64,000 nt of DNA from Alteromonas sp. BL110 (GTDB taxonomy: Bacteria > Pseudomonadota > Gammaproteobacteria > Enterobacterales > Alteromonadaceae): positions 620,001 to 684,000 of the forward strand of contig NZ_CP031967.1 of the NCBI RefSeq assembly GCF_003443615.1, read 5' to 3'. The position numbers and the translations under genes are program-made. A model generated the notes under the pieces. That model was given only the letters and a program-made list of their open reading frames with translations, ran no database searches and was not told where the DNA came from. This document shows, one piece after another, positions 13,775 to 56,537 of this stretch. Position 1 is the stretch's first letter, and every line of letters begins with the position of its first letter.

Positions 13775-16003
<2,229 letters not shown>

Positions 16004-16023
<20 letters not shown>

Positions 16024-17029
16024 CTTCCTCAGCTAAAATTGGGTCGCCAATATCGTAAGTTCTCGAAGCATTTCGACTTAGCAGTGCGTCTAAATATTGC
16101 GGCGCCAAGCCAAAGCCGGTTCTAAGCGACTTAACATTGTCATGAGTGAAGGGCTGACCTTTCTCAATAGGTACACTAGCGTAAAGCGAACGGCGTCTTA
16201 ACTTATCTTTTTCACTGACCTCGTAGGTGACTTTACCTAAGGCAAGCTCTACCTGACGAACCCCCTCCACCATATCAGCAAATTCGTCTGGCTCCATCGA
16301 AAACGCGGAGTCTGGACCACCAAGCGCTCTGTCTAAGATAAAATGCTTTTCTATAACCCTTGCTCCCATTGCTGCCGCCGTTACGGGTACCACAGCGCCC
16401 ATAGTATGGTCAGAAACACCTACTATGGTGTCGAATTTATCACGCATGTCTATCATGGTTTTAAGATTGGCATCAGCAAGAGTAGAGGGGTAATTTGACG
16501 TGCATTTTAAAAGTGTTACTTGAAAGTTTTTTTCTTGGTGACAGGTTTCTAACGCTAAGGAAATGTCAGTTTCTTGCGCTACCCCTGTTGAAATAATAAT
16601 AGGTTTGCCCGTTTTCGCTACCGCCCTTATCAAAGGAATATCAGTAATTTCAAACGAAGCAATTTTGTAGAGGGGGACGTCAAGCTGCTCTAAAAGTGCT
16701 ACACCATCTAAATCAAATGGGCTGGAAAAAAATACCAAACCCAACTCTTGAGCTACTTTTTGAAGCGGCTCATGCCACTCATAAGGCATAGATGCTTCTT
16801 TGTATAAATCCCATAAAGTACGGCCTTTCCATAGGCCGTCTTTGCGCTCTCCAAAAATGTCATTATCTATATTTATGGCCAGCGAATCAGCGGTGTAAGT
16901 TTGTACTTTAACCGCGTTAGCTCCTGCTTTCGCCATTGCTTTTATCGTATCGACCGCCAAATCAAAATCGTTATTGTGATTAGCGGACAGCTCGGCAATG
17001 ATGAATACTTGTTCGGTAAACGGATACAT
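16004..17029 (-). CDS. pseI: Pseudaminic acid synthase PseI (NeuB family)
   Basis: A 341-residue enzyme that condenses the 6-deoxy-AltdiNAc sugar with phosphoenolpyruvate to form pseudaminic acid. The NeuB domain starts with IIAELSANHNNDFDLA and includes KIASFEITDIPLI and VSDHTMG. The C-terminal SAF (antifreeze-like) domain is near 275-335. It ends a minus-strand run with pseF, pseG, the acyltransferase and the ACP genes, and lies 3 bases after the ACP gene. Its 3' end overlaps pseC by 20 bases. A NeuB-type sialic acid synthase is less likely because pseB, pseC, pseF and pseG are all here. Confidence 0.94.
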
Positions 17030-17032
17030 CTA

Positions 17033-17260
17033 TTAAGACTTATTAAAATATACAAGTACGTCGTCAATAGACTTTAACTTATCGAGGTCTTCGTCTGGCA
17101 CAGTGACGCCAGTTTTGCCTTCAAGCTCTACAAACAGATTGAATAAATCTAAGCTATCTAAACCATACTCTGAAAACGCTTGTTCGCTACCTAAATTGCT
17201 CACATCTGCTGTTACACCAGAGTCAGTCATTGCTTGCTTTACGTCTACTTCAGTTAACAT
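17033..17260 (-). CDS. Acyl carrier protein of the pseudaminic acid locus
   Basis: A 75-residue acidic acyl carrier protein. The phosphopantetheine-attachment serine is at residue 36 in the motif EYGLDSLDLF. I choose the ATG at 17260 because the AGAGG ribosome site is about 10 bases upstream. The ATG at 17269 would touch it. The start lies inside the synthase III gene (11-base overlap), which implies coupled translation. A dedicated ACP beside a ketoacyl synthase III and a sugar acyltransferase suggests it carries an acyl group destined for the pseudaminic-type sugar. That role is inference. Confidence 0.9.
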   Translation of the reverse strand: MLTEVDVKQAMTDSGVTADVSNLGSEQAFSEYGLDSLDLFNLFVELEGKTGVTVPDEDLDKLKSIDDVLVYFNKS

Positions 17261-18188
17261 GTTCTTCATTCCTCTTTAATAAGCAGGTCGCCCACGAAAA
17301 CCCTACACCGAATCCGCTTAATACGAGTCGCGTTGAGTTGTCGCTATTTAAATAGTTTTTCAATATGAGCGGGATGGATGAAGAAACAGTATTCCCCGTC
17401 TCTTCTAAGGCTTTTATAAACTTATCTTCACTTCCTTTAAAACGCCTTGCTATTGCGTCGACAATAGCCAAACTCCCTTGGTGCAAAATGAACGCATCCA
17501 CACTGTCTTCGGACCAACCATTCTTTTCTAATAATGATTTTATAGCAGGAGCGACGTTCAACGAAGCAAAGTTAAAGACTTGCCTTCCATTCATATAAAG
17601 CTCGCCTTGCTCTACTTTTAAATGCTCAGCGCCTTTTCCATCGGTACCAAAGGTACAATCTGAAACTGAATATTGGGGATTTTCTCCCATCCATGTTGCA
17701 GAAGCGGCGTCGCCGAACAGCATAGAGGTTGTTCTATTAGGTGTGGTGATCACTTTTGAGTACGGATCGGCGGTAACCAATACGCCATTTTTCTTACCAG
17801 ACGCAGCCAAGAAGCCTTGTAGAATTGATAAACCATAAACATACCCTGAGCACCCCAACGAAACGTCAAAGGCCGCAACGTGATTAGGCAATGCGAGCTT
17901 TTGATGCACTAGGGCTGCGCAGTGTGGCAAGCCATGACCGTCTGGGTTTTGGGTTACAACAATAAGTGCATCTATGTCTTCTTTAGCGAGGTCTGATTCA
18001 TTAAGCAATGCTTCCACTGCCTTCACTGCCATATCAGAGGTATCATCACCCTGTTCTAATCTTGGCAAAAACCGAGCGCCGAGCTTGGTCTCAACAAATG
18101 ATGCTGTTTCCTCGAAGGTTTCAGCTTGCTTGAAGTTATCTACACCGTCTTTAGGTATGTAGCTTGAAATAGCTTTAATGCCTATCAT
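17250..18188 (-). CDS. 3-oxoacyl-ACP synthase III family protein (FabH-like)
   Basis: A 312-residue thiolase-fold condensing enzyme. The catalytic triad of ketoacyl synthase III is intact: Cys113 (SLGCSGYVYGL), His236 (FILHQGS) and Asn266 (ETGNTVSSSIP). Synthase III enzymes load an acyl-CoA and condense it with malonyl-ACP. The ATG at 18188 is chosen because GGAG lies seven bases upstream. The frame extends 15 residues further to an earlier start at 18233. It sits two bases after the unknown 196-residue gene and overlaps the ACP gene, so the three are probably co-translated. Being away from fatty acid genes, it is likely specialised, perhaps making a short beta-keto or hydroxy acyl group for the sugar. 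Confidence 0.9.
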   Translation of the reverse strand: MIGIKAISSYIPKDGVDNFKQAETFEETASFVETKLGARFLPRLEQGDDTSDMAVKAVEALLNESDLAKEDIDALIVVTQNPDGHGLPHCAALVHQKLALPNHVAAFDVSLGCSGYVYGLSILQGFLAASGKKNGVLVTADPYSKVITTPNRTTSMLFGDAASATWMGENPQYSVSDCTFGTDGKGAEHLKVEQGELYMNGRQVFNFASLNVAPAIKSLLEKNGWSEDSVDAFILHQGSLAIVDAIARRFKGSEDKFIKALEETGNTVSSSIPLILKNYLNSDNSTRLVLSGFGVGFSWATCLLKRNEEHVN

Positions 18189-18189
18189 G

Positions 18190-18780
18190 CTATTCTCCAA
18201 CAATAAACTGCACGGTTCCAAAACGTTTACCATCGATTATTACGTCGTTAATCGAAAATTTGTTTTGCATCATTCGCGTAGTTTTAATAGAAAGACTTCC
18301 ATAAACTATCGGCAGCTCATCGCAAAAGTTAAGCTGTCCCACCAACCACTTCCCCTTATTTAGACTAAAGAGTGTGTTATGAAGCTTTTTCGTTAATGCC
18401 ACTACAAGTTCAACGGTTGTGCAGTCATTGAGACAAAAAGCAGTGGCCTGTTGCTGCGAGGATATTATCTCGGCGTCTTTTACCAATTTATCCTCATCAA
18501 ATGGGTAAGATTCGTCCACTGGTGTATCAGTCTCGACAATTACACCACTTATACTTTCCCGATTACTTTTATCGAGAAGCTGCACAGCGCCAACAATGTT
18601 TTCTTCTACACCCACTGCTGCTTGCCCAAGTAAAACCTCACATTGGCAATGTATTAACTGCTTAAATATGAGTTTAGTCACGATTTGATTCTCATCACAT
18701 ACTGCAGTGCTAAACCACGTATAGAAATCCGTACTATGCAGGTACTTTCGCGAGCCTTTAAACTTAAGTTCTGTTTTCAT
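18190..18780 (-). CDS. Unrecognised 196-residue protein of the glycosylation locus
   Basis: I do not recognise this protein. It has no signal peptide and no transmembrane segment, so it is probably cytoplasmic. It contains several Cys (residues about 28, 46, 48), a segment GSRKYLHSTDFYTWF near the N-terminus, and a beta-rich C-terminus. Its start overlaps the stop of the NeuD-like gene by one base (TAATG), and its stop is one base before the synthase III start. That tight packing implies a shared job with the synthase III, ACP and acyltransferase, such as reducing, dehydrating or recognising the acyl group. This is inference only. Confidence 0.8.
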   Translation of the reverse strand: MKTELKFKGSRKYLHSTDFYTWFSTAVCDENQIVTKLIFKQLIHCQCEVLLGQAAVGVEENIVGAVQLLDKSNRESISGVIVETDTPVDESYPFDEDKLVKDAEIISSQQQATAFCLNDCTTVELVVALTKKLHNTLFSLNKGKWLVGQLNFCDELPIVYGSLSIKTTRMMQNKFSINDVIIDGKRFGTVQFIVGE

Positions 18781-19421
18781 TATCGAATCCTTTTAGCCGG
18801 ATTTCCCAACATAGTGGCGCCAGGGGCAACATCTTTAAAAATGGCAGCGCCAGCTGCCACAGTGCTGTATGTACCAATACGTACGCTGTCTCTAACCACT
18901 GAATTTGGTGCTATCTGAACGCCTTCTCCGACATGAGCATAGCCGCATAGCGTTGAATTAGGGCCGATATCAACTAGATTATCAAGCGTAACATCGTGCC
19001 CTAGGTTTGCATTCGCGCGAATAAAACAGTTATCTCCTACCTTTGCGCCAGGTTGAAGTACAGCGTTGGCAGCGACGACAACACCACTACCAAGTTTTAC
19101 ATTAAAACCAATGCTCGCAGATGGATGAACCACTGTTGCCAGTCGGCTTTGCGGAATATTGAGTTGCTTGAATTTTTCAGCGCGAACTTTCATTTTTCCA
19201 ACAGACAGTAGCGCATAAACGAACGAAACATCACCGTCTAAGCTTTCCCATTCATGGGGCGCGCCTAATACTGGCCATCGCTCGATGTACTCTCCTACAG
19301 GAATATTGTCATTTAAAAAACCTACAAGCTCGATGGACTCGCCAGCTTTGATTAAATCAAGAACAATTTGAGCGACAACTAAGCCATTCCCGCCGCCACC
19401 TATGATCACTACCTTTTTCAA
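18780..19421 (-). CDS. NeuD/PglD-type sugar O/N-acyltransferase
   Basis: A 213-residue left-handed beta-helix acyltransferase. The N-terminal Rossmann-like sugar-binding domain has VVIIGGGGNG, and the hexapeptide-repeat domain spans about 95-210. His142, in NANLGHDVTLDN, aligns by context with the catalytic His of PglD. PglD N-acetylates a UDP-4-amino-4,6-dideoxy sugar, the same chemistry as PseH. No PseH-type (GNAT) enzyme is in this locus, so this protein probably fills that step, either with acetyl-CoA or with an acyl-ACP made by its neighbours. An O-acetyltransferase role, as for NeuD, is the alternative. Confidence 0.88.
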   Translation of the reverse strand: MKKVVIIGGGGNGLVVAQIVLDLIKAGESIELVGFLNDNIPVGEYIERWPVLGAPHEWESLDGDVSFVYALLSVGKMKVRAEKFKQLNIPQSRLATVVHPSASIGFNVKLGSGVVVAANAVLQPGAKVGDNCFIRANANLGHDVTLDNLVDIGPNSTLCGYAHVGEGVQIAPNSVVRDSVRIGTYSTVAAGAAIFKDVAPGATMLGNPAKRIR

Positions 19422-19433
19422 TACATCCTGCCT

Positions 19434-20555
19434 TTAACTGATAATTTCATCTAACCACGGTTGGTTGTGGTCGTATGCATCCATAACCGATAGCGCCTTA
19501 GCGGACATTTCATTCAATTTATCTGAAGAGCACCTTAAGTTATCAAGCACGTTGATAACACATTGCTCAACCTCGTTTAAGTTTTCGCATTCTGAACTGA
19601 AGTCACCAATATAAACCACTGCCCCCCTCGCTTCTAATGAAGTTGCCTGTGCAACCTGATTTTGAGCAATAGTGAGGATAACTGTAGGTAAGGCCATCTT
19701 ACAGCGCTCCCAGGATATGGTACCCCCTCCGCCAATAGCTAAATCACTCCGTAACATCAATGATGAAATATTCGATGCCTGCACGTGTAATTCAATACCC
19801 TGTTGCCCACAGAACGTTATTATCGCTTGCTTATGCGGATGGTGCTTGCCTATAACAACGTCAACACTGACAGGGTCATCTAACTTTTCATTCCATTTGG
19901 CGAGTAATTCACATACAAACAAGGTTGCATTATCTTTGTCCATGCCGCCAAAGCAAACAAAAATGCGCTTTACTGATTTGCGCAGTATAGGAGAGACTTG
20001 AGTGAACTCTTCTCGCAACGGAAAGTACTGTGGGCCAATAATGAGCCTGGTGCACCTAGGTATTTTTCCGCCCCATTTCGTTTGGGCATCGAGCACTAAA
20101 TTAGGGTCAATTAATACATCGCATAGCAGCGCACGATCTGCTAGACCATCAATTACAACGACTTTGGCACTAAGGGCTTCTTTCACCGTATTGTGCCATT
20201 GAGATGTAAGCGAAAAATGGTCGACTATAACAATAACACGCTCCGATAGCGTCACCTGCTGCAATGCCGTCAGTGACATCTCTGCGTCACTCAGTTCTGT
20301 GCTACCTAACCAATTAGCATGAGGGCACCAACTCCCTTCGTATTTGGCGGAGTCTGCCAAAGGTAGCTCAATAACCTTGAAACCTGCACCTCTTACTTCA
20401 TCTAAACAATGCCCCTTATGAGGCTTGGAAATAAAGGTTATTGATACGCCTCGATCATACAGCAACTTAGCCAACGTTAGGCAGCGCATAACGTGACCTG
20501 TTCCTATGTGCTCTGCACTGTCCGCGCGGATAAACACCGTAACTGAGTTGTCCAC
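19434..20555 (-). CDS. pseG: UDP-2,4-diacetamido-2,4,6-trideoxy-beta-L-altropyranose hydrolase PseG
   Basis: A 373-residue GT-B fold hydrolase that removes UDP from the diacetamido sugar before the PseI reaction. The N-terminus has the family motif IGTGHVMRCLTLAKLL, and the C-terminal domain has the glycine-rich DLAIGGGGTISWERC motif. The length is slightly longer than typical PseG (about 270-360). It lies two bases downstream of pseF and 12 bases before the acyltransferase gene. Confidence 0.93.
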   Translation of the reverse strand: MDNSVTVFIRADSAEHIGTGHVMRCLTLAKLLYDRGVSITFISKPHKGHCLDEVRGAGFKVIELPLADSAKYEGSWCPHANWLGSTELSDAEMSLTALQQVTLSERVIVIVDHFSLTSQWHNTVKEALSAKVVVIDGLADRALLCDVLIDPNLVLDAQTKWGGKIPRCTRLIIGPQYFPLREEFTQVSPILRKSVKRIFVCFGGMDKDNATLFVCELLAKWNEKLDDPVSVDVVIGKHHPHKQAIITFCGQQGIELHVQASNISSLMLRSDLAIGGGGTISWERCKMALPTVILTIAQNQVAQATSLEARGAVVYIGDFSSECENLNEVEQCVINVLDNLRCSSDKLNEMSAKALSVMDAYDHNQPWLDEIIS

Positions 20556-20557
20556 CC

Positions 20558-21253
20558 TTACAACCCTCGAGACTGTATCGCGCTAAATAAAAGTTCTGCT
20601 GTTTCCCAATCTTCCTCGGTATCTATATCTTGTACGCGGTATCTTGGCATCAAAAACGCGCTGGCATGATGAGAGTACATAGGCAAGTTTTGCAAAAAAG
20701 CATCAGCTCTTCCCCAATAAAATTGCCCCGCATCGTGATAGGCTTCTTGTAGGTCTTGAGAACGTGCTTTCATTTGCTTTTTATCAAACATTTCAATATC
20801 GCCTTGAGGCGTGAAGTAAAAAGCACGCTGAATCGGGAAAGGGAAACTTGTAGCTGCAAAGCAAAAGTTTCTCTTTGAACTTTTTAATTGTTCAAAAGCG
20901 CTAACCAAATCATTAGATGTTACAAAAGGGGCAGTAGCATATAACACACAGCAATAATCTGCCGGTTGCTCGTTCTCTGCTAGCCATGTCAACGCGTGAT
21001 TAACTACATCGCGGGTCACTGCGCGATCATCAGACAGCTCAACGGGTCGGACGAACGGAACAGATGCCCCCTTTTCAATAGCAAACTGTGCAATTTCGTC
21101 ATCATCAGTGCTTACAATAACTTTATCAAATTGCGCAGAGTTTAAAGCGGCTTCGATAGACCAGGCAATAATAGGCTTGTTGCAGAAAAGACGAAGGTTT
21201 TTTCGCAAAATACGTTTACTACCGCCGCGCGCTGGAATTATTGCTACATTCAT
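20558..21253 (-). CDS. pseF: Pseudaminic acid cytidylyltransferase PseF
   Basis: A 231-residue nucleotidyltransferase that activates pseudaminic acid with CTP. The CMP-sugar synthase signature IIPARGGSKRILRKN lies at the N-terminus, followed by KPIIAWSIEAAL and VSTDDDEIAQFA. It heads the minus-strand run pseF-pseG-acyltransferase-unknown-synthase III-ACP-pseI, all with gaps of a few bases or overlaps. The CMP sugar it makes is the expected donor for the Maf protein encoded next to it. Confidence 0.94.
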   Translation of the reverse strand: MNVAIIPARGGSKRILRKNLRLFCNKPIIAWSIEAALNSAQFDKVIVSTDDDEIAQFAIEKGASVPFVRPVELSDDRAVTRDVVNHALTWLAENEQPADYCCVLYATAPFVTSNDLVSAFEQLKSSKRNFCFAATSFPFPIQRAFYFTPQGDIEMFDKKQMKARSQDLQEAYHDAGQFYWGRADAFLQNLPMYSHHASAFLMPRYRVQDIDTEEDWETAELLFSAIQSRGL

Positions 21254-21331: not shown

Positions 21332-24300
21332 CTAGGCCGACTTCTTTTTACTGAAAATGAGTTTTGTTTCGCAAAGTGATACTTCTAACGGCCTTGGACA
21401 CAACCAAAATCTATCACCGCCTTCATTGGTCATCTCTTTATCGGCCAGAGGTTCAGAAGCTAAAGCAAACATATTATAGGTTTCAAATGATGTCATACCG
21501 CGGGATAGTATAGGGAAGTAATTTTCAAAGAAGCTCCCCCAATCTTCCTGCTCAAGTTTAGGAAACACCAACTTCAGTTTATTGCTCGACGTCAGCGCGA
21601 GTACCGCGGTAAACACGGCTTTTTCTAGTCTTTTGTCATCAAAGCTATCGAACGGGCTAAATACAACAATATCGCTTTCAGTTGCTTTGAGCCGCTCGTG
21701 TAACGCCAATAGAACTTCTGGGTCATTTACGATATACGCCATTCGGCTGATGCCAGACTTTCGCTCTTTAAGACCAGAAACACTAGAAATAACTTCAATT
21801 TGATAGTGGCATTGGGTATCTTCAGCGTTTTGGTTAATTTCTAGCGCACTAAGTAGGTCATTAACAGATTCACTAACGAAAGCCACGCTTTCTCTTTCGA
21901 TAAATTCTTGAAGGGCGATTTCTTGCCTTTCTCTTGTAAAACTTGAAACAGTGTCAAAGGCATCTGGGTACATCGAAATACTCGTTAACGCATCATCGAG
22001 AAAGTTGTGCCAACACTCTCTTATTGCCTCAAACTTTTCCATCACAAGTTCGTCGTTCTTGAAATGCGTTAGTTTACTAAAAATACTGTTTATATAGTTA
22101 GATGTACCATTGAAGTAGAAAAACAGAATAGAGCATTTACGCAAATATGCTTCGACCAAAAATTTTCGCTGGTCGAACACAAGCTTATCAATATCTTCGC
22201 GCCCATTAAATTCCCTTTCAGATAACGCTTTGAAATTGGTTATATCCTCAATCAGCGCATCGTGGTTAAAACGTTGAGCAAATCGCTTCTGGAATTCAGT
22301 CGCTGGAATAGGAGCATGAGCCTTATTTTGAATCCAGTTCATCGCTGCCTGTTTGTCTTCCAATGAATTGGTAATAATTAGTGCGTCTTGCTCTAATGGG
22401 GGACTGCCAACAATTTTTGCGCCATCGTTTAAGTTATAGACGTCGGCGTCACTAAATGCTGCAAGGGTTTTCTCAATCACAGATTTAGACATATTGAATT
22501 CAAATTTGGTATTTACATAGGGTCTTAAATTCCCCGGCACTACCAATGAAGTGTCTGTCCGTTCTGCGTGATTGAACAGTTCGTCACCGTCTTTTTTATA
22601 ATAGCCTGAAGACTTTGAGTGATGATGTTTAACATCAACCATACCGAGATCTACCCCAAACAAATAAACTTGTTTAAAGCCAAGTTCCAACACGTAATTA
22701 ATAACGAAATTAGACACAGTAGGGTAGGAAAAATGAAGGAAGGGTAAATCTAGCTCAGGAAAGAGCTCTTTCATAAATACCGTTGATGACTCCCCCTCTT
22801 TGAAGGCGAGATAAGTATTTTTATAAAGATCTGCCGTATCAGGGTGCACACCATTACAGCTGATGAAATTAATTTGCTTTAAATACGCTTTGTCACCAAT
22901 TCGAGATGCCCAGTCAAATGTTGCTCGGTTCGATTCCACTTCAGCATGAAAATCAGGAACAATGCCATTGCTATACATTGCCTGAAGAGCCGTACCGCAC
23001 GAGATGACAATTGCATGTTCTCTTTCTTCTTTTAAAAGAGGCATTAAACTGTCAAGAGATGGGCCGTTCCCTACAATAAACACAGCAACATCACTTAGGC
23101 TTTTACCTAGGGCTGGCACACCCGCTTTTCGATAAAACCCTATATTGTTTTCAACCGCCCATTTGGTATGTGTTGTTCCGAAGCGAGAGTGTTCGAAATA
23201 TTCTCCCATAGCAACTATCAAACGTAGGTCTTCTCTGAGTTTATCAACAGCAGGCAGTAGCACCTCGTTATCGTAACCAAGGGAGAGATAGGTGTTAGCA
23301 ATAATATGGGTACCAATGGAATGGAACTGACTTAACAGGTCGCGAACTAAGTTGCTACCATCATCACCTATGTTGAGATAAATTCGATGTCGTTTTTCTT
23401 CAACCTTGTTAAGTATTGCTGCCCAATCTATCGCATACAGGGAAGCAAAAAAGTAATCTCGATTAGGCTCACAAACAAAGAGCTTTTCGATATCTCGAGA
23501 CTCACTTAAAGCTTCAAGCTGATAGCCCGCTCCCATTCCAAAAAGAAGCATCGACTTAACAGTTTCAGGTAACTCGCCTTCTTCCTCTTCCATTCCTGCC
23601 AAATGCTCTTGAATTCTTCTGACCATTTTATGGTGCGAGTAATGAATCAGCTTCCCACCTGCGTAACCTAAAATTAAGTTATCCCGGTTGGGCTGTCTAA
23701 CAAACGCCTCATAAGCCCGTTCAGATTCACGTTTTGGACTCTCGCCATGAAGTGGCGTACTGGTCTCTATATGGAAAAGGTTTACTTCACCACGCTGATT
23801 CGCTCGAGGCTCCCATTTAAGCGGGACATAATCTTTGAATTCGTGTGCAATGTCTGGGTAGTACTTTGAGAACGACGCTATATTTTTATCAAACGTGTCG
23901 CGACTAAGTTGGCTTTTATCCCAATGACTTTTCGTGACTATAGGGCTCCATGGGACTAAATAATCGTCGAATGGTTGCAATGAAGGGAAAGAAAATAAAC
24001 GTTTTTGTACGCTATCGATGGTTAGCTCTGACAGGCTTTTCATTACCGAGTCGAAGCTCATACTGTGATAGTGCTGATAAAAATAAACACTAGTAAAAGG
24101 GCTAACTTGCTTTAATTCACTTAAGTCCTCTAAGACCGAACTTCCGTCACGCTGGCTTTGAAAGTAAATCGCCGTCCCTTTTTCAGCGGCAACCTTAAAA
24201 ATTTCCGGCCACACACCTGTGTACAAAGAGCAGTGTGTGTATTCAAAATTAGGTTCGTAAAGAATAATGCTTTTAAAGTTAGTTTCTCTCACTATATCTA

Positions 24301-24694
24301 AAAGATGAATGCCTAAACCCAACCCCAACGCCACCAATACGTCAGCGTTATCATCAAGGGGATAGGCTTGCTGCGAAAAGCCGTCTTTGTTTAGAACCCA
24401 CGGAGAACGTAAAAAAGCATCCACATGTTTATGGATATTGGCGGTTACCTGGTCGCCATACAATACCTTGCCGCTATTAAAATCGACAATATCAAGCTCT
24501 TTATTTTTATTGATGAACACAGATGTAGACGTGCTTCGCGATTGCATTAACTGAGCACAGATAACAGGCATCACACGCTTGAAGGCTATTAGACTTTTTT
24601 CTTTGTTCTTTTTTATCACATATGCAGATTCGACTTCTAGTGATGTTTGCTGTTCTTCATCATCTAAAAGGTAGAATTTAATGGCTTTAAGCAT
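21332..24694 (-). CDS. Large Maf-type motility accessory factor (flagellin glycosyltransferase)
   Basis: A 1120-residue protein of the Maf/DUF115 family, whose members transfer pseudaminic-type sugars to flagellin. The DUF115 core starts near residue 535 (VAVFIVGNGPSLDSLMPLL) with the ISCGTALQAMYSNGIVPDFHAEVES segment. The N-terminal half is duplicated: residues about 118-190 (VLVALGLGLGIHLLD, then LYEPNFEYTHCSLY) and 381-455 (SMLLFGMGAGYQLEAL, then VCEPNRDYFFASLY) match in order and spacing. Family members are usually about 600-700 residues. The gene starts with an overlap (TAATG) on the FliT-like gene, tying it to the filament cap operon, 78 bases before pseF. Confidence 0.9.
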   Translation of the reverse strand: MLKAIKFYLLDDEEQQTSLEVESAYVIKKNKEKSLIAFKRVMPVICAQLMQSRSTSTSVFINKNKELDIVDFNSGKVLYGDQVTANIHKHVDAFLRSPWVLNKDGFSQQAYPLDDNADVLVALGLGLGIHLLDIVRETNFKSIILYEPNFEYTHCSLYTGVWPEIFKVAAEKGTAIYFQSQRDGSSVLEDLSELKQVSPFTSVYFYQHYHSMSFDSVMKSLSELTIDSVQKRLFSFPSLQPFDDYLVPWSPIVTKSHWDKSQLSRDTFDKNIASFSKYYPDIAHEFKDYVPLKWEPRANQRGEVNLFHIETSTPLHGESPKRESERAYEAFVRQPNRDNLILGYAGGKLIHYSHHKMVRRIQEHLAGMEEEEGELPETVKSMLLFGMGAGYQLEALSESRDIEKLFVCEPNRDYFFASLYAIDWAAILNKVEEKRHRIYLNIGDDGSNLVRDLLSQFHSIGTHIIANTYLSLGYDNEVLLPAVDKLREDLRLIVAMGEYFEHSRFGTTHTKWAVENNIGFYRKAGVPALGKSLSDVAVFIVGNGPSLDSLMPLLKEEREHAIVISCGTALQAMYSNGIVPDFHAEVESNRATFDWASRIGDKAYLKQINFISCNGVHPDTADLYKNTYLAFKEGESSTVFMKELFPELDLPFLHFSYPTVSNFVINYVLELGFKQVYLFGVDLGMVDVKHHHSKSSGYYKKDGDELFNHAERTDTSLVVPGNLRPYVNTKFEFNMSKSVIEKTLAAFSDADVYNLNDGAKIVGSPPLEQDALIITNSLEDKQAAMNWIQNKAHAPIPATEFQKRFAQRFNHDALIEDITNFKALSEREFNGREDIDKLVFDQRKFLVEAYLRKCSILFFYFNGTSNYINSIFSKLTHFKNDELVMEKFEAIRECWHNFLDDALTSISMYPDAFDTVSSFTRERQEIALQEFIERESVAFVSESVNDLLSALEINQNAEDTQCHYQIEVISSVSGLKERKSGISRMAYIVNDPEVLLALHERLKATESDIVVFSPFDSFDDKRLEKAVFTAVLALTSSNKLKLVFPKLEQEDWGSFFENYFPILSRGMTSFETYNMFALASEPLADKEMTNEGGDRFWLCPRPLEVSLCETKLIFSKKKSA

Positions 24695-25011
24695 TATTTT
24701 TTATATCTCTTTGCCGCTTTTTGCGCTCTTGAAAAGCCAACTATCTCCTCTTTTGCTGCTAACTTCAACTCAAGCGCTAGCGCTTCGAGTTCTCGGTTAA
24801 TAGTTAATTCATTTTCAGCGAAAGCTGAGCGGGCATCGTCTGAAAGTCGGCGCAACTCGCGCAGCACTAAAGAATGTCGAAGGCTAATAAGGTAATGGAA
24901 TTGTTCAGTCGAGAGCGCGGCAGGCTCTGCCGCCACGCAAACCGCAATTGCTGCGTTAACTTTACCTAGAAAAATTGGTGTTAAGGAATGGTTTAATTTA
25001 TCAAGGTTCAA
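24694..25011 (-). CDS. Putative FliT-like flagellar chaperone (TTG start)
   Basis: A 105-residue, helix-rich protein directly after fliS, the position of fliT in enteric bacteria and close to that of flaI in Vibrio. FliT-type proteins chaperone the cap protein FliD. The start is TTG at 25011: it overlaps the fliS TGA (TTGA), and the protein has no internal Met at all. Similarity is weak, so the call rests on size, helical composition and gene order. Its stop overlaps the Maf gene start by one base. Confidence 0.65.
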   Translation of the reverse strand: MNLDKLNHSLTPIFLGKVNAAIAVCVAAEPAALSTEQFHYLISLRHSLVLRELRRLSDDARSAFAENELTINRELEALALELKLAAKEEIVGFSRAQKAAKRYKK

Positions 25012-31727: not shown

Positions 31728-32702
31728 TTGAATAAAAAACTTAAATTAGTTGAAATTTGTCGTATCTCACCGCCCGCTATACATGCAGCCTTTACTGATT
31801 TGATAGAAAATCCTTTCGACAAAAGTAGCAATTCACTGTTGTGCTGTTATCGCCAAGCAACTGACCATGTGAGTAAAGATGGCGTAATAGTTATCCTTAC
31901 GGTTAATAAAAAAACGTCTGAGATTGTCAGTAAGGTTTTGGTTAACGAACCGGGTACAGACTTAAGAGATCCTAAACTGATGTTCGACGGGCATAGGGTG
32001 ATATTAACGGCCTTTGCAAAGACTATTGATGAAAACGATCAAGCCCACACAAAAATGCTTAGTATTTTCACCACCAATGGAAAATCTTGGTCTAGTAAAC
32101 ATTGGTTTGGAGATAATGGTTGGTGGATATGGAAACCGCAATGGACTAACAACAAAGCGTTCGGTTTCGCTTATCATCGCCCAGCTGATCACATTACGTT
32201 GTATGAAGGCGACCCAACACGAGCCATGCGCATTCATAAATCAAGCGTTTTTGGCCTAGCAAAAAACAATAAAGGTTTTCCGAATGAAGCTTCTCTTTTG
32301 TTTGACGGTGACGGAAAAGCAAGCGTATTTTTAAGACGAGACGCTGATACGTTTTCCGCCCAATTTGGCACGTCTAGACCACCTTATACAAAGTGGGATT
32401 GGTGTGATTTAGGCATTTATATTGGTGGACCCTGCGCCGTGGCTCTAAACGCTACCACATTTTTGGTCGCCGGCCGGCACGTAAATTGGGAAAAACGGCG
32501 GTTTTCAACGCGTATTTGGCATTTCGATGCCAAGAGCAAAAAGCTCACCGAAGTACTAACAATGCCAAGCTGTGGTGATACTAGTTATCCGGGTCTGGTA
32601 TTAGATAACGATCTTCTTTACATATCCTACTATTCGAGTCATGTCGACAATCAAGCCAGGGTTTATCTGGGCAAGATTAAAGGCATTAAAACGCTCTTTT
32701 AA
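31728..32702 (+). CDS. Sialidase-like beta-propeller protein
   Basis: A 324-residue protein with sialidase-superfamily features. An early Arg lies in the motif CYRQATDHVSKDG near 40-52. A DLRDPKLMFDG segment lies near 78-88, and an Asp-box-like IFTTNGKSW near 113-121. There is no signal peptide, so it is probably cytoplasmic. The start is TTG at 31728 with AAAGGAG seven bases upstream. It stands between flagellin 3 and flgL, on the opposite strand to both, ending six bases from the flgL stop. Given the pseudaminic acid pathway nearby, a role on nonulosonic-acid glycans is attractive but is inference. Catalytic activity cannot be judged. Confidence 0.75.
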   Translation: MNKKLKLVEICRISPPAIHAAFTDLIENPFDKSSNSLLCCYRQATDHVSKDGVIVILTVNKKTSEIVSKVLVNEPGTDLRDPKLMFDGHRVILTAFAKTIDENDQAHTKMLSIFTTNGKSWSSKHWFGDNGWWIWKPQWTNNKAFGFAYHRPADHITLYEGDPTRAMRIHKSSVFGLAKNNKGFPNEASLLFDGDGKASVFLRRDADTFSAQFGTSRPPYTKWDWCDLGIYIGGPCAVALNATTFLVAGRHVNWEKRRFSTRIWHFDAKSKKLTEVLTMPSCGDTSYPGLVLDNDLLYISYYSSHVDNQARVYLGKIKGIKTLF

Positions 32703-49804: not shown

Positions 49805-50485
49805 ATGACCCTTTCTCTGTTTGCGTCACACTGCTTAGCATTAGTAGCCTTGCTACTGGCTGGACAACAACTGAGGGATCACTACGTTATCGAGTTTCCA
49901 AAGCTCGAACAGGAAGTTAAAAATAATTTTGGAGCTGACAAAGCATTACATGTTAGCGCGCTTGAAACTAAACTTAACGACCTTGAAAACAAGGCCATTA
50001 AAGAGCAGCTTATCGGTGTAAACGCTTTTTTTGACGAGCATATCCAATACGCTACTGACGATATCGTATTCAAACAAAAAGACTATTGGGCCACGCCTTC
50101 TGAGCTTTTTGGTCATTCTCGCGGAGATTGTGAGGATTATGCCATTGCAAAATACGTAGCTCTGCTACACTTAGGTATCGATAGTTCTAAACTTCGCCTC
50201 ATTTATGTAAAAGCGAAGATTGGTAGAAGCCGAGTAACGCAAGCACATATGGTTTTGGGATACTATGATTCCCCTTCATCGGATCCTTTGGTGCTAGATA
50301 GCTTAGTGTCTAATGTGTTGCCAGGTTCTCAACGGACGGACTTAATTCCTGTATTCAGTTTTAATGATTCGGGTATTTGGCAGCCGGGTAAAACTGCACA
50401 AGTTTCTTCGTCTACCAGCAGACTATCAAGGTGGCGTGATGTTATTGAGCGCATGAAACAAGAGGGGATTAGCAGAAGGTCTTAG
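49805..50485 (+). CDS. lapG: LapG-type periplasmic cysteine protease
   Basis: A 226-residue transglutaminase-like protease that cuts the giant adhesin LapA when c-di-GMP is low. One N-terminal hydrophobic segment (about 3-20) exports it. The likely catalytic triad is Cys109 (RGDCEDYAIAK), His148 (TQAHMVLGY) and Asp165 (LVLDSLV). Glu110 and Asp111 fit the calcium-binding region of the family. It lies six bases before lapD. The substrate motif TAAG is present in the adhesin at 58735. Confidence 0.95.
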   Translation: MTLSLFASHCLALVALLLAGQQLRDHYVIEFPKLEQEVKNNFGADKALHVSALETKLNDLENKAIKEQLIGVNAFFDEHIQYATDDIVFKQKDYWATPSELFGHSRGDCEDYAIAKYVALLHLGIDSSKLRLIYVKAKIGRSRVTQAHMVLGYYDSPSSDPLVLDSLVSNVLPGSQRTDLIPVFSFNDSGIWQPGKTAQVSSSTSRLSRWRDVIERMKQEGISRRS

Positions 50486-50491
50486 GAGTTT

Positions 50492-52426
50492 ATGTCAATA
50501 ACAAGAGAATTATGGCTTGCCATAGCAGTTGTTGTCCTTGTTGCAATTGCAGGTAGCGTCACAATTCATGGAATAACTACCAAGCAATACGTAGAAGAGC
50601 AGCTTTATTCAAAAAACCTAGACAACGCTAGTATGCTTGCCCTTACCCTAAGTGGGCTTGACAAAGACCCTGTTTCACTAGATCTTTTCATAATGTCACA
50701 ATTTGACATTGGTCACTACGCTTCCATTGTGCTTCAAAAATCTAACGGTGAAATTGTCTCTGCACACACCCACGAAGTGCAATTAGATGAAGATACGCCA
50801 AAGTGGTTTTCAGATAATTTTTCTCCCATAGTCAAACCAGGTATCGCCCAAGTAAGCGAAGGTTGGGGTCAGTACGGCACGGTTTATGTCGAGACGGATA
50901 CTAGCTTTGCGGTGGCATCAATGTGGCGCGCTACACAGCGACTTATTTTTGGTTTATCTCTTGTGGGCATATTTTCGGGCCTGTTAGGCGGCTGGGCGCT
51001 ACGCTTCATTATTCGCCCACTAGACGGTGTCGTGCGCCAGGCTGAATCATTCCAACAAATGCAATTTATCCAGCTAAAGGAGCCTCGCACCTTAGAGCTT
51101 AAGCGTGTAGTGCGCGCCATGAACTTTCTTGCTTCTAACTCTAGAAAGATCATGGATGAAGAAAATACACGGCTAGATCTCATGCGCTACAAAACGCAGT
51201 TTGACGACGAGTCTGGCGTTGCTAACAGAGATTACTTTATTTCAATTTTAAAAGGGCAGCTGGCATTTAGAGACACTGAAGGGGTGAACTGCCTTTTCTT
51301 CGTCAGATTTACCGAAGGCGAAGGCTTTTTACGCTCACCTGCAAATATCAGAAAAAGGCGCATTCGCGATTTTGTTGAGGAGATTAATGACTGCCTTTCA
51401 TTACATCATCATCAGTTTACTGACAGCCGTATTGCAAGAATGCAAAGAAATGAATTCGCTATTTTACTCACGGAAACCCATGATGCTGTTGCTATTTCAG
51501 AAGCGGTCCATGGCGCGTGTTTAAGTGCGTTTAGTGATGTAGGTGACCCCAAGGTATTTCAATCCGTTGTTAAACTTCGCCCAGACGATAGTTTCTCTGC
51601 CCTGTTGATGCGGGCAGATGCGATGATTGATGAAGCAGAACTGTTAGATATGGATGAGCCGTTTATCGAATCAACGCTCAAAGAATTTATTAGCTTGGTA
51701 GAGCAAAAACGCTGGGAAAAAGAACTACAAAATACTATTGACGAATGTGGTGTAGAAACCTTTAACTTCCCGGTTTTAGATATTGACCGAAATTTGGTTC
51801 ACTATCAGAGTTGGGCGGGCGTCACTATAGATGGCGAGCTAAGGAAAAGTGGTTATTATACCCATTGGGCTCGATATTTAGGGCTCTTACCCCAGCTAGA
51901 ACTAACCACAGTTACCAGCTTAATCAACTACATAAACCGCACTAATACAAACTCGAAGTTTGCTTTTTTATGTTCTGAGCAATTTATGCTCAACCCAGAA
52001 ATTCTAGCTCAACTTTATTATCAAATTGGGACCAACGAAAAAGCGGCAAAACAATTATGTCTTGAAGTACGAGAGTCAACAGCTACGCGCTTCCCTGATG
52101 AGTTTAGAGACTTTTGTTCAACGCTTAAAGCCAAGGAATGCGAAGTGGGTTTAAAGCGAGTTGGAGAGTCCTTCTCGCAGTTGTTGAATGTTCAGGAAAT
52201 GGGTTTGGATTATGTAAAAATCGACTCTGCGTTTATGGCAGATATCGATTACAATCCTGCCAATCACGCCTTTATACGTGGCTTCTGCTCCCTTGCCCAT
52301 ACTTTTGGTATAAAAGTTTATGCAGACGGAGTTAAGCGCTCCGATCATCAGGAACTATTCATTGAATTAGGGATAGACGGTGTGGTTTCACATATTGAAG
52401 TTATAGAGCATCTTTTAGATGACTAA
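50492..52426 (+). CDS. lapD: LapD-type c-di-GMP receptor (degenerate GGDEF-EAL)
   Basis: A 644-residue inner-membrane receptor. TM1 covers about 7-28. The periplasmic LapD_MoxY_N domain has EGWGQYGT with Trp125, the position known in LapD to contact LapG. TM2 covers about 151-174, followed by HAMP. The GGDEF domain is degenerate (QRNEF in place of GGDEF), and the EAL domain lacks the EAL motif (HYQSWAGV), so it should bind c-di-GMP rather than make or degrade it. AGGAG precedes the ATG. The 3' end overlaps the convergent LuxR gene by 26 bases. Confidence 0.95.
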   Translation: MSITRELWLAIAVVVLVAIAGSVTIHGITTKQYVEEQLYSKNLDNASMLALTLSGLDKDPVSLDLFIMSQFDIGHYASIVLQKSNGEIVSAHTHEVQLDEDTPKWFSDNFSPIVKPGIAQVSEGWGQYGTVYVETDTSFAVASMWRATQRLIFGLSLVGIFSGLLGGWALRFIIRPLDGVVRQAESFQQMQFIQLKEPRTLELKRVVRAMNFLASNSRKIMDEENTRLDLMRYKTQFDDESGVANRDYFISILKGQLAFRDTEGVNCLFFVRFTEGEGFLRSPANIRKRRIRDFVEEINDCLSLHHHQFTDSRIARMQRNEFAILLTETHDAVAISEAVHGACLSAFSDVGDPKVFQSVVKLRPDDSFSALLMRADAMIDEAELLDMDEPFIESTLKEFISLVEQKRWEKELQNTIDECGVETFNFPVLDIDRNLVHYQSWAGVTIDGELRKSGYYTHWARYLGLLPQLELTTVTSLINYINRTNTNSKFAFLCSEQFMLNPEILAQLYYQIGTNEKAAKQLCLEVRESTATRFPDEFRDFCSTLKAKECEVGLKRVGESFSQLLNVQEMGLDYVKIDSAFMADIDYNPANHAFIRGFCSLAHTFGIKVYADGVKRSDHQELFIELGIDGVVSHIEVIEHLLDD

Positions 52427-52997
52427 ATTCGCCTATACGAAGCAATAAGCTTATCCGGTCTTTCGCTTCAAACTTGTGAAGGAGCGTACCAACATATTCT
52501 TTAACGGTACGCTCTGTAATACCGTGCTCTCTAGCTATCTCCTTGTTGCTTAACCCTTCCAAAATACCATTTAACACATCTTTTTCTCGGTTGGTTAGCT
52601 CACGCAGCACAGGTAAATTACGCTTCGTCTGCAAGTTCGCAGCGACATTTGAAGTAGTCACTGTCAATAATTCATTGGGCAACCACATGCCTCCAGCTTC
52701 TATAACACGTGCTACAGAAGACAGTAGAGATTGTGTCCCTAGCGCATGGCAATATGCTCTAGCACCTAACATTAGTGCTGTTTGCATCTCTAGGCGGTCA
52801 TATTTGTAGGTGAGCAAAACGAGGTTATCGGCTTTTTGTTTTGCCTCAAGCAGTAACTGACGCCAGCTTTTATCGCTCGCCATAATCCATACACAGTCAC
52901 TACTATCGCACTTTAATTCATTGACACTACTATAACTAGACCAAGAGTATTGAGTAAGTGCCCCTTGTAAGTCTTTTTCTGCGATAAAATGTCTCAT
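52401..52997 (-). CDS. LuxR-type transcriptional regulator of the adhesin locus
   Basis: A 198-residue regulator. The C-terminal LuxR/FixJ helix-turn-helix (about 130-195) has LTNREKDVLNGILEGLSNKEI and ITERTVKEYVGTLLHKF. The N-terminal 120 residues resemble a receiver domain but lack an obvious full phosphorylation site, as in CsgD and VpsT. It starts one base before the lapC stop (TAATG), so it is translationally coupled to the secretion genes. It may control adhesin or matrix genes (inference). Confidence 0.9.
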   Translation of the reverse strand: MRHFIAEKDLQGALTQYSWSSYSSVNELKCDSSDCVWIMASDKSWRQLLLEAKQKADNLVLLTYKYDRLEMQTALMLGARAYCHALGTQSLLSSVARVIEAGGMWLPNELLTVTTSNVAANLQTKRNLPVLRELTNREKDVLNGILEGLSNKEIAREHGITERTVKEYVGTLLHKFEAKDRISLLLRIGEFSHLKDAL

Positions 52998-54364
52998 TAG
53001 CGCTCCCTCAGCGCAGAGGCTGTCACATTAAATAAGGGCGATAAAATGTAATTAAGAACGGTTTTCTTACCCGTTAAAATATCTACTTGCACAATCATGC
53101 CTGGCAGAATGTCCAAGGATTCATCTGCGATGCTTCGCTTTGTTTCAAGCCTGACAAGGTAATAGGTTTCATCTTTTTCATTGGTAATAGCATCTGCACT
53201 AATGTGCTGAACTTCAGCCGACATACCGCCATAAATAGTAAAATCGTATGCACTAAATTTCAGGATTGCCGGCTGCCCTTCCCTAATAAAAGCAATATCT
53301 TTCGGTGAAACTTTGGCCTCAACAATAAGCTGATCATCTTGAGGAACAAGCTCGACAACGGCACTACCTGGTGTAATAACGCCGCCAACTGTGTTGATGA
53401 GTAGTCGTTGAACCGTTCCATTAATAGGGGAGCGCAAGTCAGCTTGCGATACTACATCTTCTAAACTCGTTTGAGACTGCTGTAGCATAGCCATTTCACC
53501 AGTCGCATCGGTCAATTCTTGATTCCATCGATTGATTAGCTTTAGGCGGGCCTCTTCCTTCTTAATAATTTCTTCTTCAATAGCGTTAAGGCCTCGCTCT
53601 ATTGCCACTTTAGATTTGCTGATGTTGCCTTCAAGCTCTACTATTTGACGTTCTAATCTAAGAATTTCTATTTCCGACACTGCTCCTGATGCTAACAATG
53701 GCTTAGTCACCGCAAGCTCTTTTTTAGAAAGTGTCAGCACATTTTGATATTGAGAGAGATTAGCTCGCTCTTCTTCAACATCTTGTCGGCGTTGCAAAAT
53801 ACGGGAATCAGAACCCGCCGCGACTTCATCAAGCTCAGCTAAATTCGAGTTATAGAGTTTTCGCTCATTATCAACGATAGTAGGCGCCTCTTCCTTAAGT
53901 TCTCGATTAAACCGCAATACCTCGCCCTGGGTAAGCGCAGACAAGCGCTGTACCTTCGCGGCAAGTGCTGCAAACTGAGTGGTATTTTCTTCTAAACTGG
54001 ACAGAAAGCGCGTGGGATCGACTTTTAATAGCACTTGCCCTGCTTCAACGGTTTGTCCTTCACGCACTAAAATCTCCTGCACTATCCCGCCATCGTAGGA
54101 CTGGAGCACCTGCAGCTGTTGTGACGGAATAACCTTCCCATCACCTTTAGCAACTTCGTCAATCTCTGCGAAATAAGACCACACCACCAACAAAAACAGC
54201 ACTATTATTACAACATAGAGTAGGCCTCGGGCTTTTACCGGCGTTTGCATAATGCGCGACCATTCCGCTTCTAACACCCAATCTTGACCTGGAGGCGGCG
54301 CAAGCCAGCCTCGCATAAGCCTCTGTAGCCAATCTTTTTTTTCACCATCACTTTTCAAAATCAT
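52997..54364 (-). CDS. lapC: Type I secretion membrane fusion protein LapC (HlyD family)
   Basis: A 455-residue HlyD-family adaptor linking the ABC transporter to the outer-membrane pore. A single transmembrane helix lies near 47-67 (GLLYVVIIVLFLLVVWSYFA). It is followed by the biotinyl-lipoyl half (VVQEILVREGQTVEAGQVLLKV type), long coiled coils (about 130-300) and DLRSPINGTVQRLLI. It overlaps lapB by four bases (ATGA). Confidence 0.94.
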   Translation of the reverse strand: MILKSDGEKKDWLQRLMRGWLAPPPGQDWVLEAEWSRIMQTPVKARGLLYVVIIVLFLLVVWSYFAEIDEVAKGDGKVIPSQQLQVLQSYDGGIVQEILVREGQTVEAGQVLLKVDPTRFLSSLEENTTQFAALAAKVQRLSALTQGEVLRFNRELKEEAPTIVDNERKLYNSNLAELDEVAAGSDSRILQRRQDVEEERANLSQYQNVLTLSKKELAVTKPLLASGAVSEIEILRLERQIVELEGNISKSKVAIERGLNAIEEEIIKKEEARLKLINRWNQELTDATGEMAMLQQSQTSLEDVVSQADLRSPINGTVQRLLINTVGGVITPGSAVVELVPQDDQLIVEAKVSPKDIAFIREGQPAILKFSAYDFTIYGGMSAEVQHISADAITNEKDETYYLVRLETKRSIADESLDILPGMIVQVDILTGKKTVLNYILSPLFNVTASALRER

Positions 54365-56520: not shown

Positions 56521-56537
56521 ACAGGTCTACCACATCA

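Follow-up and report, generated by a model that had tools for sequence, protein, structure and literature searches.

A four-gene set within the flagellar pseudaminic acid locus

We examined a 64,000-nucleotide stretch of the Alteromonas sp. BL110 genome (hereafter the window; positions 620001-684000 of the 4.46 Mb, one-contig genome searched in this work) in which genes for the biosynthesis of pseudaminic acid (Pse) surround a quartet of putative acylation genes. The region is flagellar, with flagellin, FliD, FlaG, FliS and FlrA labelled by eye and a Maf-type glycosyltransferase identified via Pfam. The quartet lies between pseG and pseI, entirely on the minus strand, in the order PglD-like acyltransferase, an unrecognized protein that we call X, ketoacyl-acyl carrier protein synthase III (KASIII) and acyl carrier protein (ACP). 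Its presence, first noted in a reading of the sequence alone, is confirmed. In window coordinates, the four genes are:

18780..19421, minus strand: PglD/VioB-like hexapeptide N-acyltransferase, TTG start (TIGR03570, NeuD/PglB/VioB, 164.4 bits, cut-off 160.8)
18190..18780, minus strand: protein X, 196 aa, predicted double hotdog (no profile match; AlphaFold models)
17250..18188, minus strand: KASIII-type ketoacyl-ACP synthase, 312 aa (PF08541/PF08545; triad Cys113/His236/Asn266)
17033..17269, minus strand: acyl carrier protein, 78 aa, serine motif GLDSLD (PP-binding PF00550, E 1.8e-9)

The genes are packed as tightly as the sequence-only reading had described, with neighbors overlapping or touching throughout. 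The first base of X is also the final base of the stop codon of the PglD-like gene, and the ACP gene starts inside the 3′ end of the KASIII gene. For KASIII, the first ATG (18233) would give a protein of 327 aa (17250-18233), and an alternative ATG at 18188 gives 312 aa. The latter is the most likely start, as it fits the relatives better, has GGAG upstream and lies one base past the X stop codon; numbered from there, the complete catalytic triad reported earlier (Cys113/His236/Asn266) matches exactly.

The flanking genes supply the remainder of the pathway:

13856..14857, plus strand: pseB, UDP-GlcNAc 4,6-dehydratase (inverting), from the ATG at 13856 (TIGR03589 555.5 bits, cut-off 407.75; score computed on 13853-14857, i.e. 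with one extra codon)
14854..16023, plus strand: pseC, UDP-4-amino-sugar transaminase (TIGR03588 545.9 bits, cut-off 423.5)
16004..17029, minus strand: pseI, pseudaminic acid synthase (TIGR03586 442.6 bits, cut-off 340.25)
19434..20555, minus strand: pseG, UDP-sugar hydrolase (TIGR03590 243.8 bits, cut-off 153.55)
20558..21253, minus strand: pseF, CMP-pseudaminic acid synthetase (TIGR03584 325.7 bits, cut-off 205.7)
21332..24694, minus strand: Maf-type flagellin glycosyltransferase (PF20157 E 3.6e-102, PF01973 E 5e-29)

PseB, PseC, PseI, PseG and PseF each score above the curated NCBIfam equivalog cut-off, consistent with the five-gene set that had been recognized from the sequence. The acetyltransferase PseH, which the same reading had found missing from the locus, is indeed absent by this standard: no protein encoded in the whole genome exceeds the 93.1-bit cut-off of TIGR03585, so the search for a GNAT-type PseH elsewhere, proposed as a way to refute the idea, returned none above it. 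That search yielded eight weak GNAT matches, all outside the window, the best at 34.6 bits.

A distant GNAT might nevertheless act as PseH, with the quartet only adding to its activity. Many GNATs encoded in pse loci of this genus score below the PseH cut-off, which thus misses some: 33/59 Alteromonas genomes match the model at E 1e-15, and 9/59 exceed the cut-off. Because many of these locus GNATs score low, we compared the eight weak matches directly with the 39 GNATs encoded in the pse loci of sister genomes (see below). The best alignment reached 36 bits, with 26% identity over 126 aa. Two further quartet carriers, G105 and G320, show no PseH match whatsoever at E 1e-5, and none above the cut-off was found in the eight other genomes with an intact X that were tested (G105, G320, G038, G058, G412, G419, G844 and G916; the genome of locus L009 was left out). 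We therefore give this explanation little credence.

Within the quartet, the KASIII is not the housekeeping FabH, as it scores 182.1 bits against a fabH cut-off of 292.1. The genome encodes one FabH above the cut-off and two further KASIII-like matches, one of which is the window copy; the other (G000:C1:2912569-2913399) scores 135.5 bits against the fabH model, also below the cut-off. A FabG above its cut-off is likewise encoded outside the window. With FabH and FabG encoded elsewhere, the KASIII of the window is an additional copy, and ketoreduction can come from outside. The PglD-like enzyme finds its best PDB sequence match in VioB (7txp, E 1.2e-24). The window thus combines KASIII, ACP and a hexapeptide acyltransferase, as in a viosamine-type module, although no ketoreductase, the role of VioR in that module, was found among the ten proteins scanned between 13.9 and 24.7 kb; X adjoins KASIII instead.

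Predicted fold and conservation of protein X

The sequence-only reading had left X unrecognized, and profile searches agree: neither Pfam nor NCBIfam yields a match at E 0.1, nor do the PHROGs at E 1. An X profile searched against PDB sequences returned chance-level matches alone (ribosomal L22 and others; best E 0.11). We regard X as a putative enzyme family that is as yet undescribed, being named by none of these three profile libraries.

Structure prediction is more informative. Two AlphaFold models, with predicted local distance difference test scores of 87.9 and 95.3, adopt a double hotdog, the first of the two folds (hotdog or ketoreductase) that had been suggested for X. The second model matches dehydratase/enoyl-isomerase domains of polyketide synthases (PKS) and TesB-type thioesterases over its whole length; for the first, the VIA-align match is confined to the second half (94-196). 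Among the 50 Foldseek matches listed for X, the majority are dehydratase-type domains. Though X resembles the PKS dehydratase/enoyl-isomerase double hotdogs in predicted fold along its entire length, it is ~45-95 residues shorter than the top three matched chains, shares 3-15% identity with the matches listed and has no invariant catalytic His. Across 54 aligned X sequences, eight residues are invariant (K8, R11, Y13, D18, E124, K131, W145 and F192). Position 15, which by eye we take to be the place of the catalytic His that dehydratases need in the first hotdog, is His in 46 sequences and Gln in 8. Glu124 sits on helix 122-137 of the model and is a candidate for the catalytic acid that dehydratases carry on the helix of the second hotdog.

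These features bear on what X might do to an acyl chain. X could be a thioesterase or transacylase that shifts the acyl group among ACP, CoA and acceptor, which would concern only its own step and be compatible with the overall route proposed below. The TesB-type matches speak for such a role, but a hydrolase would squander what the route makes, transfer is already provided for by the hexapeptide acyltransferase, and dehydratase-type domains predominate among the 50 Foldseek matches listed. We consider it unlikely.

Alternatively, X could be a malonyl- or methylmalonyl-thioester decarboxylase that supplies the KASIII starter, again affecting this step only. MadA/MadB and the double-hotdog LnmK provide precedent as hotdog decarboxylases of acyl thioesters; such enzymes rely on a conserved Asn of the catalytic loop (PMC8666670). 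There is no Asn among the eight residues that are invariant across the 54 X sequences. LnmK is not among the fold matches listed for X, which excludes nothing. Moreover, KASIII enzymes normally start from acyl-CoA. A decarboxylase therefore seems improbable to us.

Co-inheritance of X, KASIII and ACP and their acyltransferase partners

X is rare. It was found in 3/59 genomes of the genus, 5/394 of the order, 4/369 of the class (one in pieces) and 1/398 of a phylum-wide sample; these sets overlap and each count includes the BL110 genome, which is the sole carrier in the phylum sample. The protein database yielded 16 relatives when searched with X alone and 57 when searched with an alignment, two of which carry the name Idiomarina. 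We read ten intact X loci: the window, L009, L010, L018-L022, L103 and L106. In all ten, KASIII and then ACP directly follow X, and both the KASIII Cys-His-Asn triad and the ACP serine (DSL motif) are present in 10/10 loci aligned. For these three proteins, the co-occurrence that the sequence-only reading had proposed to look for is found, in a fixed order. Pairwise distances among X, KASIII and ACP correlate strongly (r 0.97-0.99, a level reached in no more than 2 of 5000 permutations), a correlation to which shared species history contributes. These sequence comparisons provide strong support for co-inheritance of the three proteins. The earlier proposal that X is a third component of an acyl-ACP route is supported, as is a hotdog fold for it. 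The quartet arrangement is not a matter of chance, as it recurs in other genera and families.

The acyltransferase beside this triad varies with the sugar pathway. Seven of the ten intact loci are Pse loci, and every one (7/7) encodes a PglD-like enzyme next to X-KASIII-ACP; in L106 the gene order differs and the enzyme falls below the TIGR03570 cut-off (141 bits). In the three loci that lie in other sugar clusters (L020, L021 and L103), the partner is a hexapeptide enzyme that, among NCBIfam models, scores best against LpxD (E 3.6e-56, 3.2e-49 and 2.2e-39, respectively, all below the LpxD cut-off). L103 carries an RmlC-FdtA fusion and a DegT-type aminotransferase, suggesting a 3-amino-3,6-dideoxy sugar; L021 carries an aminotransferase and L020 a deacetylase-like protein. 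LpxD uses acyl-ACP, which is our main reason for thinking that the PglD-like enzyme does so as well. With three of the ten intact loci in these other clusters, the cassette extends beyond nonulosonic acids. The earlier suggestion of a distinct nonulosonic-acid acylation system accordingly holds in part: seven Pse loci pair X-KASIII-ACP with a PglD-like enzyme, but the cassette also occurs in other sugar clusters.

An eleventh arrangement, in genome G1078 (L104 and L105), differs again. Its X is broken into two pieces that lie on separate contigs, and the locus is not among the ten counted above. Here KASIII and ACP are followed, in a pse cluster, by an AAC(3)-like acyltransferase and a DUF4910 protein, with PseC, PseF, PseG, PseH and PseI downstream; this PseH, at 143 bits, is above the cut-off. 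The proposed replacement of PseH therefore fits the window, where the quartet is present and no PseH exceeds the cut-off, but does not extend to G1078.

Such a case raises the prospect that the PglD-like enzyme is a plain acetyl-CoA N-acetyltransferase standing in for PseH, with KASIII, X and ACP making a separate acyl group, such as an O-acyl on the finished sugar or protein. The coexistence of KASIII and ACP with both a PseH and an AAC(3)-like acyltransferase in G1078 would fit, and the best relatives of the PglD-like enzyme (VioB and a pilin glycosylation protein) fall in a family named for sugar acetyltransferases. Several observations argue otherwise: the PglD-like gene stands beside the triad in all seven intact Pse cases, no second acyltransferase occurs among the ten Pse-locus proteins scanned, and the partner in non-Pse loci resembles a family that draws on acyl-ACP. 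On balance we find two separate acyl groups quite unlikely.

We also surveyed pse loci across Alteromonas. PseF exceeds its cut-off in 56/59 genomes, and the stretches around all 56 loci were examined (53 fetched, three of them truncated by a contig end, plus L010, L022 and the window). By content, 39 loci carry a GNAT, 11 a trio of LicD-like, ATP-grasp and HAD-like genes, 3 the quartet and 3 none of these. The last group comprises L042 and L052, with a WbqC-like protein, and L048, which encodes a formyltransferase-like protein and has genes resembling transposases. Family scans covered L039 for the trio, L052 for WbqC and L048 for the formyltransferase; the remaining loci were assigned via BLAST cluster, and transposases by eye. 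In the 14 genomes with neither GNAT nor quartet, no PseH match at E 1e-15 was found anywhere in the genome. GNATs are absent from 3/3 quartet loci and present in 39/53 of the others.

ACP-linked genes are not confined to the quartet loci. In 35 of the 39 GNAT loci (35 of all 56), the GNAT is joined by genes for an SDR reductase and an AMP-dependent ligase and by a short open reading frame resembling ACP; the SDR and one ligase cluster were scanned in L044 only, and the second ligase cluster was labelled by eye. The ACP motif was sought near the reductase. Two initial patterns recovered 2/35 and 12/35, and a looser pattern over a wider stretch, picked after these had failed, recovered 35/35; a control run afterwards gave 0/35 on the opposite strand and 0/35 in stretches away from the reductase. 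From this survey, the acylation step emerges as the variable part of the island, where acyl chemistry linked to ACP is a common feature. Between the window and the GNAT loci, conservation among the pse genes is lowest for PseG, with a median identity of 23.5% compared with 46-71% for the other four, which agrees with, though it does not prove, a changed acyl group on the PseG substrate.

Several further features of these loci were apparent. The GNAT loci with ACP, SDR and ligase (L044 and L058-L091) often include LuxE- and LuxC-like genes, as judged by eye. In the trio loci (L039, L041, L043, L045, L047, L049 and L053-L057), the LicD-like, ATP-grasp and HAD-like genes follow pseI, and the ATP-grasp ligase could attach an amino acid to the same amino group; in L054, pseG and pseI are each split into two adjacent pieces. 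In the window, a 105-residue protein without a Pfam match (24694-25011, minus strand) lies between Maf and the FliS-like gene, with a counterpart recognizable in 31/56 genus pse loci. A 324-residue protein (31728-32702, plus strand) is encoded on the opposite strand within the flagellin cluster and has no Pfam match at E 0.001. Further along (49805-52426 and 52997-58487), a LapG-like protease (Peptidase_C93) and a LapD-like EAL protein adjoin a type I secretion set (C39-ABC transporter, HlyD and OEP-OmpA outer membrane protein) and a repetitive stretch at ~59-63 kb that, by eye, resembles a giant adhesin read on the wrong strand.

A putative acyl-ACP route to N-acylated pseudaminic acid

We propose, with a probability of just under 60%, that the quartet stands in for PseH through an N-acylation route that depends on acyl-ACP and leads to Pse5Ac7(acyl) on flagellin. 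The acyl group would be short, probably of four carbons (C4). As judged from its family, KASIII would condense a short starter, most likely acetyl-CoA, with malonyl carried by the dedicated or the general ACP, giving a C4 β-keto acyl-ACP; a C4 chain is the natural product of KASIII with acetyl-CoA. A housekeeping ketoreductase encoded elsewhere, such as FabG, would then reduce this intermediate. X, as a free-standing fold relative of PKS dehydratase/enoyl-isomerase domains, could process the ACP-bound C4 chain by, for example, dehydration, isomerization or hydration, a role suggested by its computed fold and invariant acidic residues. The PglD-like enzyme may next transfer the acyl chain to N4 of UDP-4-amino-4,6-dideoxy-β-L-AltNAc, the position that PseH normally acetylates. 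PseG, PseI, PseF and Maf, which act in this order in the pathway, would carry the product on to flagellin.

Several lines of evidence weigh against this proposal. No ketoreductase lies beside X-KASIII-ACP in the loci read (by eye), so the reduction must come from elsewhere. Dehydration is just one option for X, because its His is not strictly conserved and TesB-type thioesterases match equally well. PglD and VioB are known acetyl-CoA enzymes, so the PglD-like enzyme could simply acetylate. As the KASIII and ACP of G1078 adjoin a PseH, replacement is not universal. A distant GNAT could be missed, as just 9 of the 39 genus locus GNATs exceed the PseH cut-off. Finally, the three genomes of the genus that carry the quartet are closely related, and we have kept the mutual exclusion of quartet and GNAT out of our main case.

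More tentatively, with the odds against it, X may found a free-standing double-hotdog family that edits a C4 acyl group on a dedicated ACP, by dehydration, double-bond shift or inversion to the (S)-3-hydroxy form. X-KASIII-ACP would then be a portable donor cassette serving pseudaminic acid, 3-amino-sugar and other pathways, with only the sugar N-acyltransferase changing. We know of no pathway that makes an N-acyl group such as crotonyl-pseudaminic acid, a product this extension would foresee.

Parts of the proposed route have precedent, described here as far as excerpts of each source allow. The closest is the viosamine island of Pseudomonas syringae pv. tabaci 6605 (vioS, a KASIII; vioB, an acyltransferase; vioR, a ketoreductase; and acp), which has a counterpart in the P. 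aeruginosa PAK glycosylation island (PMC3927599). Like the quartet, it devotes a KASIII, an ACP and a VioB-kind acyltransferase to the 4-amino sugar of a flagellin glycan, producing an N-(3-hydroxy-1-oxobutyl) group. Unlike the quartet, it acts on dTDP-viosamine rather than a pseudaminic acid precursor and includes a ketoreductase, and none of its seven listed genes, all with assigned functions, is X-like (PMC3927599).

The Psa/Psb pathways of Acinetobacter baumannii (psaABCGHF) and Shigella boydii O7 make Pse5Ac7(R)3Hb, and their 4-amino intermediate is predicted to take 3-hydroxybutanoyl rather than acetyl, a replacement of acetyl like that proposed for the window, but none of the six genes named is described as a KASIII or ACP in the text available (PMC9676051, PMC3628348, PMC3726653). 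In these pathways the acyltransferase and the next enzyme change together (PMC9676051, PMC3628348, PMC3726653); enzymes 4 and 5 differ (PMC3628348) much as PseG of the window does.

Group II flagellar islands of Aeromonas combine pse genes with ACP, 3-oxoacyl-ACP reductase, AMP-dependent synthetase, luxE and luxC. They share with the quartet an ACP-linked acyl chemistry within a flagellar pse island, and their gene set resembles the GNAT/ACP/SDR/AMP-ligase set of 35/56 Alteromonas loci; unlike the quartet, they feature an adenylating ligase, a reductase and PseH, with no KASIII, X or PglD-like enzyme in the description available (PMC7874193). Shewanella oneidensis sfmABCDE, like the window, concerns a flagellin nonulosonic acid without a clear PseH, but comprises a NeuB-like protein, a thiamine pyrophosphate enzyme, a 3-oxoacyl-ACP reductase, a methyltransferase and an ATP-grasp protein, with no KASIII or ACP among these five (PMC3765264). 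Enterobacterial islands also contain fatty-acid genes, one FabZ included (PMC4875605).

Dedicated KASIII and ACP for a flagellar amino sugar, short-acyl Pse and ACPs in pse islands are therefore precedented. Searches of an open-licence library listed no account of a pse locus that combines KASIII, ACP and X. As far as those searches show, the X family and the fixed X-KASIII-ACP block are new, and so are the putative substitution of this block for PseH in pseudaminic acid synthesis and its presence in several kinds of sugar pathway alongside a different acyltransferase.

In bacteria, the N-acyl groups that nonulosonic acids and amino sugars carry influence antigenicity, phage binding and glycosyltransferase choice, and the donor route of many unusual ones is unknown. 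Here the donor-making part would be a single gene block. Since this block stays together while the sugar acyltransferase is swapped, the origin of such acyl groups becomes directly testable with four purified proteins.

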